This document shows, piece after piece, positions 42,052 to 50,577 of a DNA stretch of 64,000 nucleotides. Made by a program: the position numbers and the translations under genes. Each line of letters opens with the position of its first letter. Positions within the stretch are counted from its first letter, which is position 1. Source of the DNA: Thermogemmatispora onikobensis (lineage in GTDB: Bacteria > Chloroflexota > Ktedonobacteria > Ktedonobacterales > Ktedonobacteraceae). The notes below the pieces were generated by a model. The model was not told where the DNA came from. It worked only from the letters and a program-made list of their open reading frames with translations, and did no database searches. The DNA lies in contig NZ_BDGT01000001.1 of the NCBI RefSeq assembly GCF_001748285.1, positions 62,001 to 126,000 on the forward strand. The letters run 5' to 3'.

Positions 42052-43023
42052 TTAGGAGACCAGTCCCTTGCGGCGCATTTGCTCCAGGTCGTCGCGTGCT
42101 GGCTCCAGAGGACTGAGGCCGGCCAGGGCGCAGGCCCGTCCGATGAGAGAGAAACCGAGTTGCAGGCCCTTGATGACGTGGGCCTGCTCGGCGCTCGCGA
42201 GGGCACTCAAGCAGGCTTGCTGTTGCTCAACGGCCTGTTCCTCTTCGACAGGCAGCCGGTAGCCTGCCAGCAGGGCCTGATGAGGAAGGAACTCCTCATA
42301 TGGGAGTCGGTAGGTGGCAGCCAGCAGCATCAGCCAGTAGCCGACCTGACTGCCCTCCAGGATGATGTCGGCTGGCAGCTCGCGATGGCGATGGGTCCCC
42401 TGGAGCACGCCCGCCAGCTCCTGCAACTCATCGGCCAGTCGTCCGAGAAGATAGGTCGGATTGGGTTCCTGGAGTAGGCGCGAGGTATGTGACTGCTCGC
42501 TGAGATCGTGGTCACGCAGGTACTGGTAGGCCGTGTAGAGCTGGCGTAGCAGCGTCTCCAGTTGCCCGCCGACGGTGGCGTCTATCTCTGCACTCCCCGC
42601 CTGGTTCGCTTTCGGCGAGGTTGCCGCTTCTGGCTGCGACAGCGGAGGAGTGTGGCCATAGACCGCCGCCGGGTCGAAGACGCGGGCCGCAATCACCTCA
42701 TAGCGATCGTCAGGGAGCAGGCGCCGATAGTAGCAGCTGCGGTAGCCGTCATGGCAGGCGGCCCCACCTTGTTGGACGACGCGGATGAGCAGGCTATTCT
42801 CCTCGCAATTGACGAAGATGGCGCGCACCTGCTGGGTGTGCCCCGACTGCTCGCCCTTGCGCCAGATGGCCTGGCGCGAGCGACTATAGAAGTGGGTATA
42901 GCCGGTCTCGCGCGTCAGGCGCAGGGCCTCCTCATTCATGAAGGCCACCATCAGCACCTCATTGCTCTCATCATCCTGAATTACCGCCGGAATCAGGCCC
43001 TGGCGGTCAAACCTGAGCGTCAT
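42052..43023 (-). CDS. hisI: Phosphoribosyl-AMP cyclohydrolase (HisI) with a long helical C-terminal domain
   Basis: A 323-residue protein. The N-terminal domain (about 1-110) is His[22 protein letters not shown] is its signature, and [10 protein letters not shown] carries the zinc Cys/His region. It opens the purine ring of PR-AMP in step 3 of histidine synthesis. The remaining about 170 residues are helical. [19 protein letters not shown] within them recalls the MazG/HisE nucleotide pyrophosphatase superfamily (ExxE type), so a HisIE fusion is plausible but the second domain is diverged and longer than HisE. The start has AGGAGGAG upstream and overlaps hisF by 17 bp. Confidence 0.88.
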
Positions 43024-43810
43024 CGTGGCTCTCCTCCTCTGCCTCATCCCAGCGCACGGCCACCCCGCGCTCGCGCAGGTAGCGCTTGGCCTCGGCGATG
43101 CGATACTGGCCAAAGTGGAAAATGGAGGCGGCGAGCACGGCATCGGCGCCCCCGCTGGTCAGTCCCTCATACAGATGCTCAAGGGTCCCTACGCCGCCCG
43201 AAGCGATCACGGGCACATTGACAGCCTGGGCGATGCGGGCGGTCAGGGTGAGATCATAGCCCTGCTGTGTTCCATCGCGGTCCATACTGGTCAGCAGGAT
43301 CTCGCCCGCGCCCAGCTCGACGCCGCGGCAGGCCCATTCAACGGCGTCGAGGCCTGTGGGCGTGCGCCCTCCATGAATATAGACCTCGTAGCCGCTGGGC
43401 ATGGCAGCATTGCTGCGGGCATCGATGGCGAGCACGATGCACTGGGCACCAAACTGCTCGGCTCCCGCCCGCAGCAGCTCGGGCTGCTGCACTGCTGCCG
43501 TATTGACCGAGGTCTTATCGGCCCCTGCTCCCAGGGTGGCGCGAATATCCTCCACGCTACGAATGCCTCCGCCGACCGTCACCGGAATGAAGACCTGCTC
43601 AGCCGTCCGGGCCACAACATCGAGCATGGTCTTGCGCTGCTCATAGGAGGCCGTGATGTCGAGAAAGACCAGTTCGTCAGCTCCTTCGCCGTTATAGAAA
43701 GCCGCCAACTCGACTGGGTCTCCAGCGTCGCGCAGGTTGAGGAAGTTGACCCCCTTCACGACGCGCCCGGCGTCCACATCCAGACAGGGAATAATTCGTT
43801 TCGTTAGCAT
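43007..43810 (-). CDS. hisF: Imidazole glycerol phosphate synthase subunit HisF
   Basis: A 267-residue TIM barrel. The N-terminal [15 protein letters not shown] holds the catalytic Asp11 equivalent; the Asp130 equivalent lies in [12 protein letters not shown]. Phosphate-binding Gly-rich loops are present ([22 protein letters not shown]). HisF uses ammonia from HisH to make imidazole glycerol phosphate and AICAR. It is in the order hisH-hisA-hisF-hisI. The C-terminal 20 residues are acidic and longer than usual and overlap the hisI start. Confidence 0.97.
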
Positions 43811-43920: not shown

Positions 43921-44679
43921 TCAGGCGCCGCTCTCCGCCGTCGGTTCGCAAGCCGCGGCGCAGGCCAGGGCCGCTGCCAGATCCACATCTCCCGTGTAGA
44001 GGGCCTTTCCAATGATGACCCCTTCGACTCCCAGGCGGGCCAGCGAGCGGACATCTTCCAGCGAGCGGACACCCCCGGAAGCAATCACGGCTCGCGCTGG
44101 CTGGGCCCGCCTCACCACCTGCAGTATGGCCTGCAGCGCCTCCAGATTCGGCCCGCCCAGCGTTCCATCGCGGGCGATATCAGTGTAGATAAAGCGCGCC
44201 ACTCCCAGCGTACACAACTGGACGGCCAGCTCTACGGCGGCGATGCTCTCCGTCTGCCGCCAGCCGGCGATCGCCACCAGGCCGGCCCGGGCATCCAATC
44301 CCACGGCGATGCGTTCTCCCCAGCGCTGCACGGCCTCAGCCACCAGCATGGGCTGGCGCACCGCGCTGGTCCCCAGCACCACCCGCTCGATGCCGAGGGA
44401 GAGCACGCGCTCGATACTGGCCAGGTCGCGCAGGCCGCCGCCTAGCTCGATCTGCAGTGTGGTAGCGGCCCGAATGCGCTCCACTGTGGCCAGATTGACT
44501 GGCTGTCCCTGGGCAGCGCCGTCCAGGTCAACCAGGTGCAGCCAGTGCGCCCCAGCTTCCTGCCAACGCTGAGCCACTGCCACCGGGTCGTGGCTGTACA
44601 CCGTGGCCTGGCGATAGTCGCCCTGGTAGAGACGGACACAGCGCCCCTCGTGCAGATCAATGGCTGGCAAGACGATCAT
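43921..44679 (-). CDS. hisA: ProFAR isomerase HisA
   Basis: A 252-residue TIM barrel for the Amadori isomerisation of ProFAR. MIVLPAIDLHEGRCVRL has the catalytic Asp near residue 8; the second acid is in YTDIARDGTLGGPN. The ATG at 44679 overlaps the hisH stop codon as ATGA, so translation is coupled. There is no PriA-like feature that I can single out, and no trpF is in the window. It runs into hisF after a 110-bp gap. Confidence 0.96.
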   Translation of the reverse strand: MIVLPAIDLHEGRCVRLYQGDYRQATVYSHDPVAVAQRWQEAGAHWLHLVDLDGAAQGQPVNLATVERIRAATTLQIELGGGLRDLASIERVLSLGIERVVLGTSAVRQPMLVAEAVQRWGERIAVGLDARAGLVAIAGWRQTESIAAVELAVQLCTLGVARFIYTDIARDGTLGGPNLEALQAILQVVRRAQPARAVIASGGVRSLEDVRSLARLGVEGVIIGKALYTGDVDLAAALACAAACEPTAESGA

Positions 44680-45293
44680 GGAACACGCTCCCCCACCCAG
44701 CGCACGAAGTTCGCCAGCAGGCGCAGCCCCATCGCTCCGCTCTTCTCGGGATGGAACTGCGTTCCCCACAGGTGGTCGCTGACAATGACGCTGCAATAGG
44801 GCGTGCCATAGTCGGTGACAGCAGCCACCCCGGAAGGATCACGCGGCTCAACATAATAGGAATGGGCGAAGTAGAAGAAAGCCCCGTCAGGTATTCCTTT
44901 AAATATAGGCAGATCCGGGCGCAGTGGCTGTACCTGGTTCCAGCCCATGTGCGGAATCTTGGGTCCCTGGGGAATGCGACGCACCTCACCGGCGAAGAGG
45001 CGCAAGCCCTCAACTTCGCCTTCGGCGTGGTGCTCAGCCAGCAGCTGCATCCCAAGGCAGATGCCCAGGAAAGGCCGCCCGCGGGCCGTGGCCTCGCGAA
45101 TGGCCTTATCGAGACCAGTGGTCTTCAGGCGCAGCATGGCGGCCCCACCAGAGCCAACTCCCGGCAGCACCACAGCTCGTGCGCGTGCCACCGTGGCCGG
45201 GTCGGCGGTCACCACTGCCTGGGCGCCGACATGCTCCAGGGCCTTCTGGATACTGCGCAGATTGCCAGCCCCGTAGTCAATGATAGCGATCAT
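44676..45293 (-). CDS. hisH: Imidazole glycerol phosphate synthase glutaminase subunit HisH
   Basis: A 205-residue class I glutamine amidotransferase. The nucleophilic Cys is in GICLGMQLL, and the His/Glu partners in FHPEKSG. The N-terminal IIDYGAGNLRS is typical. It supplies ammonia to HisF. It lies between a HAD-APH fusion gene (78 bp upstream) and hisA (overlapping). Confidence 0.97.
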   Translation of the reverse strand: MIAIIDYGAGNLRSIQKALEHVGAQAVVTADPATVARARAVVLPGVGSGGAAMLRLKTTGLDKAIREATARGRPFLGICLGMQLLAEHHAEGEVEGLRLFAGEVRRIPQGPKIPHMGWNQVQPLRPDLPIFKGIPDGAFFYFAHSYYVEPRDPSGVAAVTDYGTPYCSVIVSDHLWGTQFHPEKSGAMGLRLLANFVRWVGERVP

Positions 45294-45371: not shown

Positions 45372-47762
45372 TCAGGCGCCGTCTTCTGTACCGGCTGCCA
45401 GCAACTCAGGCCAGGGCTGCAGGCCAAGATTGCCCAGGGTTACCGCCTGTGTCAGTCCCAGCCAGCAGACCGTTGTCGGAATGCGCCCACGATCCAGGAG
45501 ATTGATGGTCAACAACGGGCAACAGAGCAGCGCCAGCGCCAGCCAGCGCTCCCAGTCGGCGGGCAAAGCCCCCTCATCCTTCAGCCAGGCAAGGAGAGGG
45601 CGTAGGAAGGTTCGTAGCTTCGTGGCCAGAACCGCCTGACGAATGGGGGACGGCTGATAGGTATGCGTGACCTCAAGGCGCTCGCCCTCCGAGCCGCGGC
45701 GCAGGACGACACTCAGCGTCAGGGTGGAGGCTGTCTCCTGCGGGAAGTACATCCAACTGGCGAAAACATTGTGGTAGAGCGGCTTGACGACATCCAGCAG
45801 TGCTGCGTGCCGACCCGCGAAAGCTGGATCGAAGTAGAGATAGTCGCGTTCGTGCTCCAGGAAGACATTGCCGAAGTGGGCATCTCCATGCCCGATGATT
45901 GTCATTGCTGCCTGCCGTGGATGGAGGCGCTCCACGGCTTCCTCCAGCAGCTCGCCGAGGGTGCGCGAGAGCGCTTCTCCATTGACCACCCAACGGCACC
46001 GGAGCAGCTCCTCAAAGCGCAGTTCGTCCTGACTGGAGCCAGTAGGCCCCGGCAAGGGAAGAGCCTGACCCCGATAGAAGCTGCTGAGACGCCCACCGGT
46101 CAGGCGGTGCCAGAAGAGCTGATGAACTGGCGCCGTGGCATGCTCATCTGCGCTGCTGAAGCGCCCTGTAGCACGGTAAATCTCCAGCAGGCGCTCACAA
46201 GCGCGACGCTCGGCAGCTACCAGGGTCTCTGCCGAGACCGGAGCGGCGGCCCCTGTCTCGATGGCGCGCATCAAATCAAACATCACCGGCCAGTGCACCA
46301 GCGGATAAATGACCATCTGACGCCCCTCCTGGCGGACCACGCGCAGGGGCAGTACCATATTGTAGCCCGCCTCGTGCAGCAGCTCGGCATGGTAATACTC
46401 GGAGAGTGCGCTCTGCTCCTCCACATGCGTCTTGAAAAAGTAGCGCTCGCCGTCCCGCTCGTAGGTCCCATTGAAGGAATTCAGCGAGACAGGCCGTGGC
46501 GTCAGCGTCACCTGCTCAGTCAGCAGATCGAGGTGACGCGCAAACCACAGACGCAGCAGGCGCTCGGCCTTGTCCCGGGTCTCAAACTGCAAACGCTGGA
46601 TGGTCTCCAGGCGCTCCACCTCGGTCAGGAGCGACGGCAGGAGGCGTACATCCTCAATCACAAAATCCGGCTCGCAGGCTAGCAGGCGTCGTCTGGCCTC
46701 CTCGCTGCGTGCCCCGCTCAGAGTCGCCACTGTCACGGCGCCAGCAGCCCGCCCGCCGAGCATATCACCCGACGAATCGCCAACCACGATGAAGGGGGGC
46801 TTGCTGCGAGCCAGCTCGTCGGCGGAAGGGCCGCGGCGATCGAGGGCATAGAGAAACTGGAACGGGTGCGGTTTGCCCAGCAGGGTGGTATCGCCCCGGC
46901 GCCGCAGCTCGGCCTCTGCGACCTCGACGGCATCATAGGTACAGATGTGTTCAGCGTCGAAGCGCGAGAGCAGATCATAGGCTTGCAGCGGCAGCGCGGC
47001 CTCCTGATCAACCCGCCCCGTTGCCAGGCCCAGTGCGTAGCCCGAGGCGCGCAGGGTATCTAACGTTTCTCTGAGCGCCTCGGGAGGCAGCAATGGACGT
47101 TCGAAATAGATACAGCCGGGCTTGCCCGTCTGAGCCGGAGGGCGCCCGTATGTACGGCTGTAGAGCGCTTCCCCAAGATACCATTCCTGAAAGAGCGAGC
47201 GGCAGAAATCCCAGAAAGGACTGAGACGCGAAAAGACCCCCTCGATAGGGAGGCCCAGCCTGGCACTGGCAAAGGCATCATAGCGATTGAGCAGGTCCAG
47301 CCCAACGATGCCAGCGAAGAGGCTTTCAGCAAAGGGGGGATCACCTGCCGGCACGAGCTGGCACCCCTGGCCGAGAGCGTCGCGTTGCAGGGCCAGCGCC
47401 TCGCGCAAACGGGCCAACCACCCTTTTTCCCAGGGCTGCAGCGGCAGCAGCAGCTCGCGGCTGGCCGGGGGCAACTGCTCCAGCAGGGCAATCAGGCGCC
47501 AGCAGACCGCCGCATAGCATGTATCCCAGTTCGAGTTGATCGCCAGAGCTTTGTAGAGCAGAATCTCCTCTTCTGGGAGAGTGGCCCGGCTTAGATGGCG
47601 GCTCTCCTCAGCTCCGGTCACCGGCTGGTAGTCGCTCTGCCCCGTTACATTCCAATAGCGAGGGCTGTAGAGCAACTCGTGGAGCGTCAGACCTGCCGCA
47701 TCCCAATAGGCTGCTTCGCTGGTGATAACCCCATCCAGATCAAAGACAATCAGCGTCTTCAC
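45372..47762 (-). CDS. HAD-hydrolase / APH-type phosphotransferase fusion in the histidine cluster
   Basis: A 796-residue protein with two parts. The N-terminal HAD domain (1 to about 375) has the nucleophile motif FDLDGVIT, a long cap, and GDSSGDMLGG as motif IV. The C-terminal part (about 400-796) is kinase-like, with IGHGDAHFGNVFLE as the Brenner motif and YFDPAFAG as the metal-binding Asp. Its GTG start overlaps the hisG stop (GTGA), and hisH follows. A HAD histidinol-phosphatase is expected in such a cluster, so the HAD part may do that job. The fused phosphotransferase has no known role in histidine synthesis. Confidence 0.82.
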   Translation of the reverse strand: MKTLIVFDLDGVITSEAAYWDAAGLTLHELLYSPRYWNVTGQSDYQPVTGAEESRHLSRATLPEEEILLYKALAINSNWDTCYAAVCWRLIALLEQLPPASRELLLPLQPWEKGWLARLREALALQRDALGQGCQLVPAGDPPFAESLFAGIVGLDLLNRYDAFASARLGLPIEGVFSRLSPFWDFCRSLFQEWYLGEALYSRTYGRPPAQTGKPGCIYFERPLLPPEALRETLDTLRASGYALGLATGRVDQEAALPLQAYDLLSRFDAEHICTYDAVEVAEAELRRRGDTTLLGKPHPFQFLYALDRRGPSADELARSKPPFIVVGDSSGDMLGGRAAGAVTVATLSGARSEEARRRLLACEPDFVIEDVRLLPSLLTEVERLETIQRLQFETRDKAERLLRLWFARHLDLLTEQVTLTPRPVSLNSFNGTYERDGERYFFKTHVEEQSALSEYYHAELLHEAGYNMVLPLRVVRQEGRQMVIYPLVHWPVMFDLMRAIETGAAAPVSAETLVAAERRACERLLEIYRATGRFSSADEHATAPVHQLFWHRLTGGRLSSFYRGQALPLPGPTGSSQDELRFEELLRCRWVVNGEALSRTLGELLEEAVERLHPRQAAMTIIGHGDAHFGNVFLEHERDYLYFDPAFAGRHAALLDVVKPLYHNVFASWMYFPQETASTLTLSVVLRRGSEGERLEVTHTYQPSPIRQAVLATKLRTFLRPLLAWLKDEGALPADWERWLALALLCCPLLTINLLDRGRIPTTVCWLGLTQAVTLGNLGLQPWPELLAAGTEDGA

Positions 47763-48850
47763 GGTCGTTGTGCCGTCCTCTCGCTCAGCAAGCGCAGGCT
47801 GGCCGGCTCCTGACCAAAGCGATACGCCAGAGGCGTCACATCGATATGCTCGGCGCCCACACTGCGCAAAGCTGTAATAATCTCCACCAGATCGGCCACC
47901 GCTGTTCCCATCTGCAGCACACCCGAGACCCGGCAGCGCTGGGCCTGGGGATCATCCGTCGATTCTGAGCTGCCGATATGGTACTCAAAGCCTGGCACCA
48001 GCCGCTTTAAATGCATGCTCAGAAGCGAGCGCACCTCTTCGCCGCTGCCCGGCACATAGGCCGTCAGCAAGACGCGATTGCGCGCCTGCAGGCGGGCATT
48101 GATCAGCTCCAGGAGCACGCGCGCCACCCGCTGCGCCTGGGGGTCCTGGTTCAGGAAGCGCACATTGCCGATCAAACACGCCTGGGAACGCAGCACCACG
48201 CCATCATCAAGCAGCTTGAGGTGATTCTCACGCAGCGTCGTGCCCGTCTCCGTCAGATCGACGATCAGATCGGCGGCCCCCGTCAAGGGCGCAGCCTCTA
48301 AGGCGCCATGGGGGGTCACAATACGGCAGTGAGAGATACCGTGGCGACGCAAGAAATGACGTGTCAGCGTTGGGTACTTGGTTGCAATACGCAGCCCGCG
48401 CCTCTTATGCTCCTGGTAATAGCCGGCCAGATGCCAGAGGTCGGCGCAAGTATTGACATCGATCCACGTCTCAGGAACGGCGACCACCAGGCGGCAGGAG
48501 CCATAGCCGAGATCGCGCTCCAGAACCACCAGATCGTCATCGCTCTTCTCGTCCTCATCCGGCTCCTCGGCGTGGCCGCGGAACTCGGCCAGGAGGTCGT
48601 AGCCTGTGATGCCCAAGATGGCGTCGCCATCGTGCACTAACGCGGGAATATCAGCAGCGCGTTGAAAGACCACCTCCAGCTCTGGCAAACTGCTGATGCG
48701 AGCCAGGTACTGACGTGGATTACTGCGCTGCACCTTCAAACCGCATTCGGCCAGGAACGTCAGCGTAGCCCCTTCCAGCGTCCCCTTACCAGGTAAGGCC
48801 AGGCGGAGCTGAGCCGCTCCCGACCCGGCAGCCGCTCGCGACTCGCTCAT
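47759..48850 (-). CDS. hisG: ATP phosphoribosyltransferase HisG, long form
   Basis: A 363-residue HisG that catalyses the first step of histidine synthesis. The N-terminus has LALPGKGTLEGATLTFLAECGL; the PRPP-binding loop is DLIVDLTETGTTLREN. The C-terminal part (about 265-345, YVPGSGEEVRSLL and LRSVGAEHIDVTPLAYRF) resembles the ACT-like regulatory domain of HisG-long enzymes. An acidic insert (DEDEKSDDD) near residue 100 is unusual. Long HisG is normally allosteric and needs no HisZ, yet a HisRS-like gene precedes it (ATGA overlap). Confidence 0.93.
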   Translation of the reverse strand: MSESRAAAGSGAAQLRLALPGKGTLEGATLTFLAECGLKVQRSNPRQYLARISSLPELEVVFQRAADIPALVHDGDAILGITGYDLLAEFRGHAEEPDEDEKSDDDLVVLERDLGYGSCRLVVAVPETWIDVNTCADLWHLAGYYQEHKRRGLRIATKYPTLTRHFLRRHGISHCRIVTPHGALEAAPLTGAADLIVDLTETGTTLRENHLKLLDDGVVLRSQACLIGNVRFLNQDPQAQRVARVLLELINARLQARNRVLLTAYVPGSGEEVRSLLSMHLKRLVPGFEYHIGSSESTDDPQAQRCRVSGVLQMGTAVADLVEIITALRSVGAEHIDVTPLAYRFGQEPASLRLLSERTAQRP

Positions 48851-50373
48851 GTGCTATAGCCTCCTTCCCGCAAGGTCACGGCCAGGTCTCGGGCAGCGAC
48901 CGGGAATTCCTCGCCCGAGAGCAGATCGTGCAGCTTGACCATATTGGCCTGGCGTTCCTCTTCGCCGACGATCAGCGCCAGCCGGAAACCGCGCCGCGCT
49001 GCCTGGCGCAGAGCGTTGGTGACTCCACGAGTATTTATCTCCAGCTCTGCAATGATACCGCCCTCGCGGCGCGCCAGACGTGCCACGCGACCGGCATAAG
49101 CCAGATCCTGCTTGCCAACGGGGATCACCAGCGCCTGCGTCCGCGCCGTCTGCGGCCATTGGCTGGCAGGCATCAAGGAGATGAGCCGCTCCAGGCCAAA
49201 GGCGAAGCCGCAGGCGTTGACCCTGTGCGCTCCTCCAACCGCCTCAACAAGGTGGTCATAGCGTCCCCCACCGCACAGCTGCAGATCAGAGCCCTCCTCA
49301 TCACTGGCATGGATCTCGAAAAGCAAGCCTGTATAGTAACTCACGCCGCGCCCCAAAGCCAGATTCAGGGTAATCTGCCGGCGGTCAACCCCTGTCACCT
49401 CCATCAGCGTGGTCACCAATTGCTCTAGCTCCTCCAGCGGGTCATCATCAAGCTGATAGCGTTGGAGCAATTGGCGCAGCTCCTGGAAGACTTCGGGCGG
49501 TGGACCGGCCAGGGCGCGCAACTTGCGCAAAAACTCCAGCGCGCTAAAAACCAGTGTCCGCTGCTCACTGCGCCCGATCTTCCAAAGGAAGCGCTCGACA
49601 ATCTCGCGACGGCTGTCCTCATCGCCAAATGGCAGGCTGAAGCTGTTCAGCAGCGCTGCCACCAGCTGGTTTGACCCGTCGGAACTGGCCAGGCGGCGCC
49701 ACTGACCTGCCTCACTGGCCGATAGCGCCGGGTTGGACACCTGCTCGGGATAGAGGGCCTCCAGACGGGACTGGGCTGCTTGCTCCCCCTCTGGTGAACG
49801 ACTGATCTGCTCCATCAGGCTCAAGAGGAGGCGCGCTGTCTGAGCATCCAGGTGCAGACGCTCGATAAAACCACTGACGACGCCGACGTGACCCAGCTCA
49901 AGGCGGTAGCGGGCGATGCCCAGCTCATGCAAAATATCGCAGGCCAACTGCACGATCTCGCCATCGCCGCGCAGCGGCTGCCCGCCGAAGAGTTCAATAC
50001 CCAGCTGTGTGTACTGGCGATAGCGTCCCCGTCCAGGCGCCTCGTAGCGGAAGACCGGACCAACGTACTGAAAGCGCAGTGGCAATGAGGACTGTTGATA
50101 ATGCTCTAAATAAAGGCGACAGATGGAAGCGGTATATTCCGGCCTGAGACACAGCTCACGCTGGTGGAGCTGGAAGGCATAGAGATTCTGCCAGGCCTCC
50201 TGCCCGAAGCTCGCCTGGAAGAGGTCGCTGCGCTCCAGCACCGGCGTATCTACCGGCTCGTAGCCGGCCTTCTCTAAGAGAGCGCGCACACGCCCCACCA
50301 CCTGCGTCTGCCGGCGGTAGGCTTCGGGCAGCACATCATGCATCCCGCGCAGGCGCTCAATACGCTTCTTCAT
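48847..50373 (-). CDS. Histidyl-tRNA synthetase-like protein (HisZ or HisS)
   Basis: A 508-residue class II aaRS-like protein. Motif-2-type segment RFQYVGPVFRYEAPGRGRYRQ, the histidine-binding loop GRGVSYYTGLLFEI (RGLDYY in standard HisRS), and GGGRYDHL are present. A C-terminal HGTP anticodon-binding-type domain (about 415-500) is retained, as in true HisRS and unlike short HisZ. Coupling with hisG points to HisZ; the anticodon domain and the long HisG point to HisS. Both remain open. The ATG at 50373 is taken because the upstream extension looks non-coding. At 508 residues it is longer than typical HisRS. Confidence 0.8.
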   Translation of the reverse strand: MKKRIERLRGMHDVLPEAYRRQTQVVGRVRALLEKAGYEPVDTPVLERSDLFQASFGQEAWQNLYAFQLHQRELCLRPEYTASICRLYLEHYQQSSLPLRFQYVGPVFRYEAPGRGRYRQYTQLGIELFGGQPLRGDGEIVQLACDILHELGIARYRLELGHVGVVSGFIERLHLDAQTARLLLSLMEQISRSPEGEQAAQSRLEALYPEQVSNPALSASEAGQWRRLASSDGSNQLVAALLNSFSLPFGDEDSRREIVERFLWKIGRSEQRTLVFSALEFLRKLRALAGPPPEVFQELRQLLQRYQLDDDPLEELEQLVTTLMEVTGVDRRQITLNLALGRGVSYYTGLLFEIHASDEEGSDLQLCGGGRYDHLVEAVGGAHRVNACGFAFGLERLISLMPASQWPQTARTQALVIPVGKQDLAYAGRVARLARREGGIIAELEINTRGVTNALRQAARRGFRLALIVGEEERQANMVKLHDLLSGEEFPVAARDLAVTLREGGYST

Positions 50374-50577
50374 AGAAACTCTCGTTCCCCTCATAGAGTC
50401 ATGCCCGGTCCACCGTACCTCTAAAACCGTGTCTGCTGACCAGCGGACTGCTCCAGTGAGTGGGGTGCGCCCGCTGTCTCTCGCCCGCAGCTGCTGTGCT
50501 TGCTTCTCGCCAGGCGCGCCCACTCAAAGCTCCCGCCGTCCGTGCCGACCAGCCAGGGCAGGCAGGGGGGGCATTGC

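Follow-up and report, generated by a model that had tools for sequence, protein, structure and literature searches.

Histidine biosynthesis is a textbook case of a conserved pathway, and its imidazole-glycerol phosphate (IGP) dehydratase (IGPD, the HisB family) is a herbicide target; no alternative to this dehydratase was found described in the literature that we searched. The bifunctional HisB of E. coli and Salmonella serves as a point of reference for the gene described here (X), as both are one chain encoded among the his genes, with a HAD phosphatase at the N-terminus and a second enzyme at the C-terminus, and both genes lie directly before hisH. Each half of X also has described relatives of its own. 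S. aureus MW1667 (PDB 1qyi), deposited as a hypothetical protein, is a full-length relative of the HAD half that, unlike X, has no kinase fused to it. The APH-fold small-molecule kinases homoserine kinase (2ppq), APH(3')-II, and MTR kinase (2pun) have fold and catalytic residues in common with the kinase half at identities of about 10-18%, and the motif HQLFW..R..GGR sets the kinase family of X apart from them. Finally, the hisC3-hisD2 cluster of S. meliloti pSymA (SMa0387 to SMa0402 region) encodes a kinase that is 38% like that of X, together with a HisD that has the E/N/A signature described below; the HAD half is absent from this cluster, unlike in X, and the presence of a transporter and a HutC-type regulator points to uptake and catabolism as the predicted function.

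The fusion gene and its two halves

The window, i.e., the whole stretch of DNA that we analysed, comprises 64,000 nucleotides of the Thermogemmatispora onikobensis genome. X occupies positions 45372-47762 on its minus strand as an open reading frame of 796 codons that runs from a GTG start at 47762 to a stop at 45372-45374, with internal stops absent. Its start shares 4 nt (GTGA) with the stop of a long-form hisG (47759-48850, minus strand), that is, hisG ends at 47759, and hisG is itself preceded by a gene for a hisZ/hisS-like regulatory subunit (48847-50523, minus strand). X is followed, on the same strand, by hisH (44676-45293), hisA (43921-44796; the true start is probably internal, at MIVLPAIDL), hisF (43007-43810), and hisI (42052-43143). 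The C-terminal half of this hisI, which gives no PRA-PH (HisE) Pfam match and is a separate ORF in one relative (G026), is possibly a diverged HisE. In relatives with a contig covering the locus, X is a single gene adjoining hisH, with identities of 50-92%, and comparison with a congener gave a dN/dS of ~0.11 in the HAD half and in the kinase half alike. The sole split copy of X (G025) was considered as a natural fission and rejected, given that hisG and a transporter gene are frame-broken too in the same assembly.

The HAD half (residues 1-382; 46617-47762, minus strand) falls within the HAD phosphatase superfamily by its four motifs, namely D8-L9-D10 (motif I, 47733-47741), T248-G249-R250 (motif II, 47013-47021), K297 (motif III, 46872-46874), and D329...D333 (motif IV, 46764-46778), all of them on the minus strand and invariant, i.e., with no change at D8, D10, T248, K297, D329, or D333 across 20 homologues. 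It matched Pfam HAD families at E 1e-10 and 1qyi over the full length (phmmer E 4e-37; profile E 1e-56; Foldseek E 1e-20), and the histidinol-phosphatase types HisN, PHP, and HisB-N (TIGR02067, TIGR01856, and TIGR01656, respectively) were absent from the NCBIfam matches of X.

The kinase half (residues 383-796; 45375-46616, minus strand) carries the N-lobe lysine K444 (46431-46433), the Brenner motif HGDAHFGN (residues 625-632; 45867-45890), and the presumed Mg-binding D645 of a DPAFAG motif (45828-45830), as well as a family-specific motif, APVHQLFWHRLTGGR (46089-46133), that is likely substrate-binding (all on the minus strand). K444, H625-G626-D627, N632, and D645 show no change across the 20 fusion homologues, and the equivalent of K444 is kept in the standalone relatives except in Nocardia, where it is a serine. 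PF01636 scored X itself at 17.2 bits, below the gathering cut-off of 23.2, and matched all 17 kinase family members scanned (best E 5e-9); the lysine, the HGD..N motif, the second aspartate, and the fold nevertheless place X among the APH-fold kinases, with Foldseek matching two AlphaFold models (pLDDT 86 and 88) to APH(3')-II, APH(9), homoserine kinase, and MTR kinase. The first-pass annotation of the window had described one 796-residue chain joining a HAD phosphatase to an APH-type kinase, translationally coupled to hisG and with the Brenner motif of the kinase half intact, and had raised the question of whether its gene position is conserved in the family; the ORF, the 4-nt overlap, the invariant catalytic residues, and the adjacency to hisH in relatives bear out all of this.

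Missing late-pathway enzymes and the place of hisB

Of the 47 genomes of the class that were searched, 29 belong to the window's own family (f1; e.g., Thermogemmatispora, Ktedonobacter, Dictyobacter, Tengunoibacter, Thermosporothrix, and Ktedonosporobacter), and 27 of these carry X; elsewhere in the class, there were short, weak matches at most. Within f1, hisG goes with X without exception, as the 27 genomes with X all have it and the other two (G019 and G020) are without both. IGPD was found in none of the 29 f1 genomes, single-contig assemblies included, using both the PF00475 profile and a 194-aa Ktedonobacterales HisB as query, and is present in G001 and G002, the only other genomes of the class that have hisG. 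X itself has HAD matches only in Pfam, with no PF00475 domain to place it in the IGP dehydratase (HisB) family, and PF00475 gave no match in the source genome. At the level of the phylum, 283 of 400 Chloroflexota genomes encode IGPD, yet it occurs in none of the 28 that carry the kinase (Fisher p 9e-17, a value inflated by the relatedness of the genomes). In the control set for this search, B. subtilis was missed for hisB; since hisD and hisG were missed there too, the control genome appears to be without the operon rather than the search to be failing. A hidden IGPD was rejected for f1, the PF00475 searches (own genome, class, and phylum) and the HisB query all being negative there, although an IGPD of an unfamiliar kind may be encoded elsewhere. 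Genomes without hisG, hisD, or hisB in two other families of the class (f3 and f4; G003-G018) are predicted histidine auxotrophs, and the literature searched gave no report of Ktedonobacteria being prototrophic for histidine.

The pathway also requires a histidinol-phosphatase, and, as the first-pass annotation had presumed from the window, no clear one was found elsewhere in the source genome: HisN gave no match, and the best match to the PHP family (C3) scored 66 bits against a cut-off of 90.2, although this protein could be a histidinol-phosphatase. One genomic match (C22) exceeded the TIGR01656 cut-off and was rejected as a histidinol-phosphatase, as it is most likely GmhB, given that it sits in a gmhA-gmhB-hldE-type heptose cluster. 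This cluster (L057:5945-9385), in a Chloroflexota genome, consists of gmhA-like, gmhB-like, and hldE-like genes with glycosyltransferases.

These gaps could be read to mean that the HAD half is the histidinol-phosphatase of the canonical pathway, with the kinase being accessory and an IGPD lying unrecognised elsewhere. The HAD catalytic residues are invariant, no competing phosphatase is evident, and the gap seen most often in prototrophs is HisN (28% of 148 organisms have it at low confidence; PMC7311316), all of which would suit this explanation; it is nonetheless unlikely in our view, as it leaves the absence of IGPD unexplained and it is the kinase, not the HAD half, that recurs with hisD and hisG elsewhere and with HisD2 on plasmids (below). 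That is, the earlier proposal of the HAD half as a histidinol-phosphatase candidate retains the phosphatase gap in its favor but had missed both the lack of IGPD and the recurrence of the kinase.

Gene order suggests which gene X stands in for. In G001, a member of the same order, the locus reads hisG, a fused hisD-hisB ORF, hisH, hisA, hisF, and hisI. The fused ORF (L077:9327-11291) joins hisD and hisB in 654 aa within Ktedonobacterales. Among the loci compared, f1 hisH, hisA, hisF, and hisI are nearest to those of G001 (61, 54, 75, and 45%, respectively), and f1 hisG, hisZ, HisD, and kinase are nearest to those of two other Chloroflexota, OLB13 and G258. Judged from these sequences, a hisG-hisD-hisB block appears to have been exchanged for hisZ-hisG-X, with a new HisD (HisD2) at another locus, so that X would stand, by elimination, in the place of hisB. 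Wherever the contig reaches, X lies directly before hisH, mostly after hisZ-hisG; in Dictyobacter and Tengunoibacter it follows argB, with hisG at another place. These genomes (L081 and L082, i.e., G037 and G024; also G023, G026, and G027) have a shorter, canonical-type hisG elsewhere and X beside hisH; here, hisG was exchanged and hisB was not regained.

Standalone kinases and the altered histidinol dehydrogenase

A genome collection was scanned with two peptide patterns, both from the kinase half, so the resulting distribution covers kinase-bearing relatives and is a lower bound. The scan returned OLB13, J038, and Nocardia colli, and G258 came from the 400-genome phylum search. In the three Chloroflexota (OLB13, J038, and G258), a standalone kinase without a HAD half directly follows hisD, IGPD is absent, and, in OLB13 and G258, a convergent hisG-hisZ comes after hisD-kinase. 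As OLB13, J038, and G258 agree in gene order and possibly form a single clade, the Chloroflexota pattern of IGPD absence represents about two lineages. Nocardia colli has a kinase homologue with the N-lobe lysine changed (K to S) and a normal IGPD in the genome; at its locus (L119:7971-11044), the kinase gene overlaps a gene for a HAD-HisC fusion, with secretion and NlpC/P60-type genes around them. Outside of f1, it is the kinase half that recurs beside hisD and hisG, not the HAD half. The finding of the kinase without a HAD half bears on a regulatory or repair role as well, in which the kinase and phosphatase of X would form a non-essential opposing pair acting on the histidinol or IGP pool. 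The predicted opposing activities in one chain and the fixed place before hisH would be in keeping with such a role, but separate kinases in other lineages, together with the strict pairing of kinase and IGPD absence in Chloroflexota, would be unexpected for a regulator, and we regard this role as highly improbable.

The kinase is also found on plasmids: 106 plasmid records have it, and, in agreement with this number, 103 have a HisD that resembles the S. meliloti protein at 60% or more. Seven intact plasmid clusters were examined (S. meliloti, Shinella, R. leguminosarum, Phyllobacterium, Paroceanicella, Klebsiella, and Pantoea), and in each of them the kinase is accompanied by a HisD and an ABC transporter; most also encode a HutC/GntR-type regulator. 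The HisD2 and kinase genes overlap in Klebsiella and Pantoea, and the clusters encode HisC in S. meliloti and Shinella and an aromatic aminotransferase in R. leguminosarum. Across these clusters (L164, L165, L166, L167, L168, L169, and L170), dehydrogenases are present and the kinase is annotated as a hypothetical protein. In an S. meliloti tolC mutant, hisC3, hisD2, and the GntR regulator fall together, and so do nitrogen-control genes (PMC2912261). The literature searched on hisB loss, on histidine in Ktedonobacteria, and on the SMa0398 cluster held nothing decisive. The clusters probably serve to import and use some imidazole compound. The first-pass annotation had counted homologues outside his clusters against a role in histidine synthesis; the proteobacterial ones do lie outside biosynthetic clusters, but they occur together with a HisD paralogue. 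The co-location of HisD2 and kinase in both the IGPD-less Chloroflexota loci and the plasmid transport operons, and hence in two phyla, makes the two a linked pair.

The HisD proteins of f1, of OLB13, J038, and G258, and of the plasmid clusters form a type of their own, HisD2. HisD2 scores above the TIGR00069 cut-off, and relative to E. coli HisD (1k75) it has Q259 changed to E, D360 to N, and H367 to A, with H262 and H419 kept. That is, where canonical HisD has the zinc ligands Q259, H262, D360, and H419, HisD2 has E, H, N, and H. The E, N, and A residues are found in all 15 HisD2 compared (eight from Chloroflexota and seven from plasmids), as opposed to Q, D, and H in canonical HisD and HpsN. 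HpsN was considered as an identity for the f1 HisD and rejected, HisD2 being nearer to HisD (E 9e-93) than to HpsN (E 3e-68; 8wwe/8v35). A TIGR00069 match alone over-calls hisD, as the second HisD of G002 (L079:6979-8328) shows: it belongs with the sulfopropanediol (DHPS) dehydrogenases (8wwe, E 6e-123). In Medicago HisD, the amino group and the imidazole of the substrate are both bound to zinc (PMC5585171), and for this reason the exchanged ligands of HisD2 may mean that its substrate has another group at that carbon. In G019 and G020 (L074 and L075), HisD2 persists without hisG and X, either serving another purpose or as a relic.

The absent IGPD and the altered HisD, in addition to auxotrophy that seems common near f1 (hisG and hisD are missing from most genomes of f3 and f4, in the same class), could alternatively reflect a truncated pathway, in which IGP (or only AICAR) is made, X leads to another imidazole compound, and histidine is required for growth. 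This is improbable, even more so than the HAD half acting in a canonical pathway, as the upper-pathway genes are kept beside argB-argC across f1, in OLB13, J038, and G258 the kinase shares an operon with a gene of the histidinol-dehydrogenase type, and X and hisG were lost together in G019 and G020.

Proposed role of X and comparison with known systems

We consider it somewhat probable, from the gene content and sequence comparisons above, that the kinase half of X replaces IGPD and the HAD half provides a phosphatase step, in conjunction with HisD2. Gene content and gene order are what was observed, and the substrates, elimination chemistry, and order of steps given here are what we infer for X. 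Under this hypothesis, X would cover the missing late steps between IGP (the HisHF product) and histidine: the kinase half would phosphorylate the hydroxyl beside the imidazole ring, the phosphate would leave with assistance from the ring, and tautomerisation would give a ketone, with the HAD half supplying the phosphatase step and the HisD2-type paralogue, encoded elsewhere, working with X. Loss of the ring-side hydroxyl from an imidazole diol may be the simplest chemistry common to the biosynthetic and the uptake loci.

Two orders of steps can be envisioned. In the canonical one, the kinase would act on IGP, followed by an aminotransferase, the HAD half on histidinol phosphate, and HisD2 on histidinol; the Nocardia kinase next to a HAD-HisC fusion and the parallel with HisB favor this order. 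In the other, the HAD half would convert IGP to imidazoleglycerol, HisD2 would oxidise the latter to imidazolylglycerate, the kinase half would remove the ring-side hydroxyl via a phosphate ester, and the imidazolylpyruvate so formed would be turned into histidine by an aminotransferase (the f1 HisC gene was not located). This reordered scheme is favored by the altered HisD2, which is paired with the kinase and not with the HAD half, and by the plasmid clusters, which would import an unphosphorylated substrate. We lean slightly toward the reordered scheme over the canonical one; that it is indeed how histidine synthesis ends here, with the HisD2-kinase pair likewise serving rhizobia and Klebsiella, is put forward only tentatively and is rather doubtful. 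If it were true, IGP dehydratase, histidinol phosphate, and canonical histidinol dehydrogenase would all be bypassed, and rhizobia and Klebsiella would turn imported imidazole polyols into histidine by means of the HisD2-kinase pair. If X does replace IGPD, it would represent a clear non-orthologous replacement by a kinase-type enzyme linked to an altered HisD. Predictions of histidine auxotrophy in a whole family of bacteria with large genomes would then need correcting, and a kinase that is annotated as hypothetical on the symbiosis plasmids of rhizobia would gain a candidate function.

The proposed chemistry has counterparts in other pathways. LanM-type lanthipeptide dehydratases, mevalonate diphosphate decarboxylase, and NAD(P)HX dehydratase (ATP-dependent and of a kinase-type fold) phosphorylate a hydroxyl and then eliminate the phosphate; their folds and substrates are other than those of X, and, to our knowledge, none of them acts in histidine synthesis. 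Within histidine synthesis, X would be the functional counterpart of bifunctional HisB if the canonical order holds. It is not itself a bifunctional HisB, however: where HisB has the dehydratase, X has an APH-fold kinase as its C-terminal half, without a PF00475 match, and its HAD half is 1qyi-like and does not match TIGR01656.
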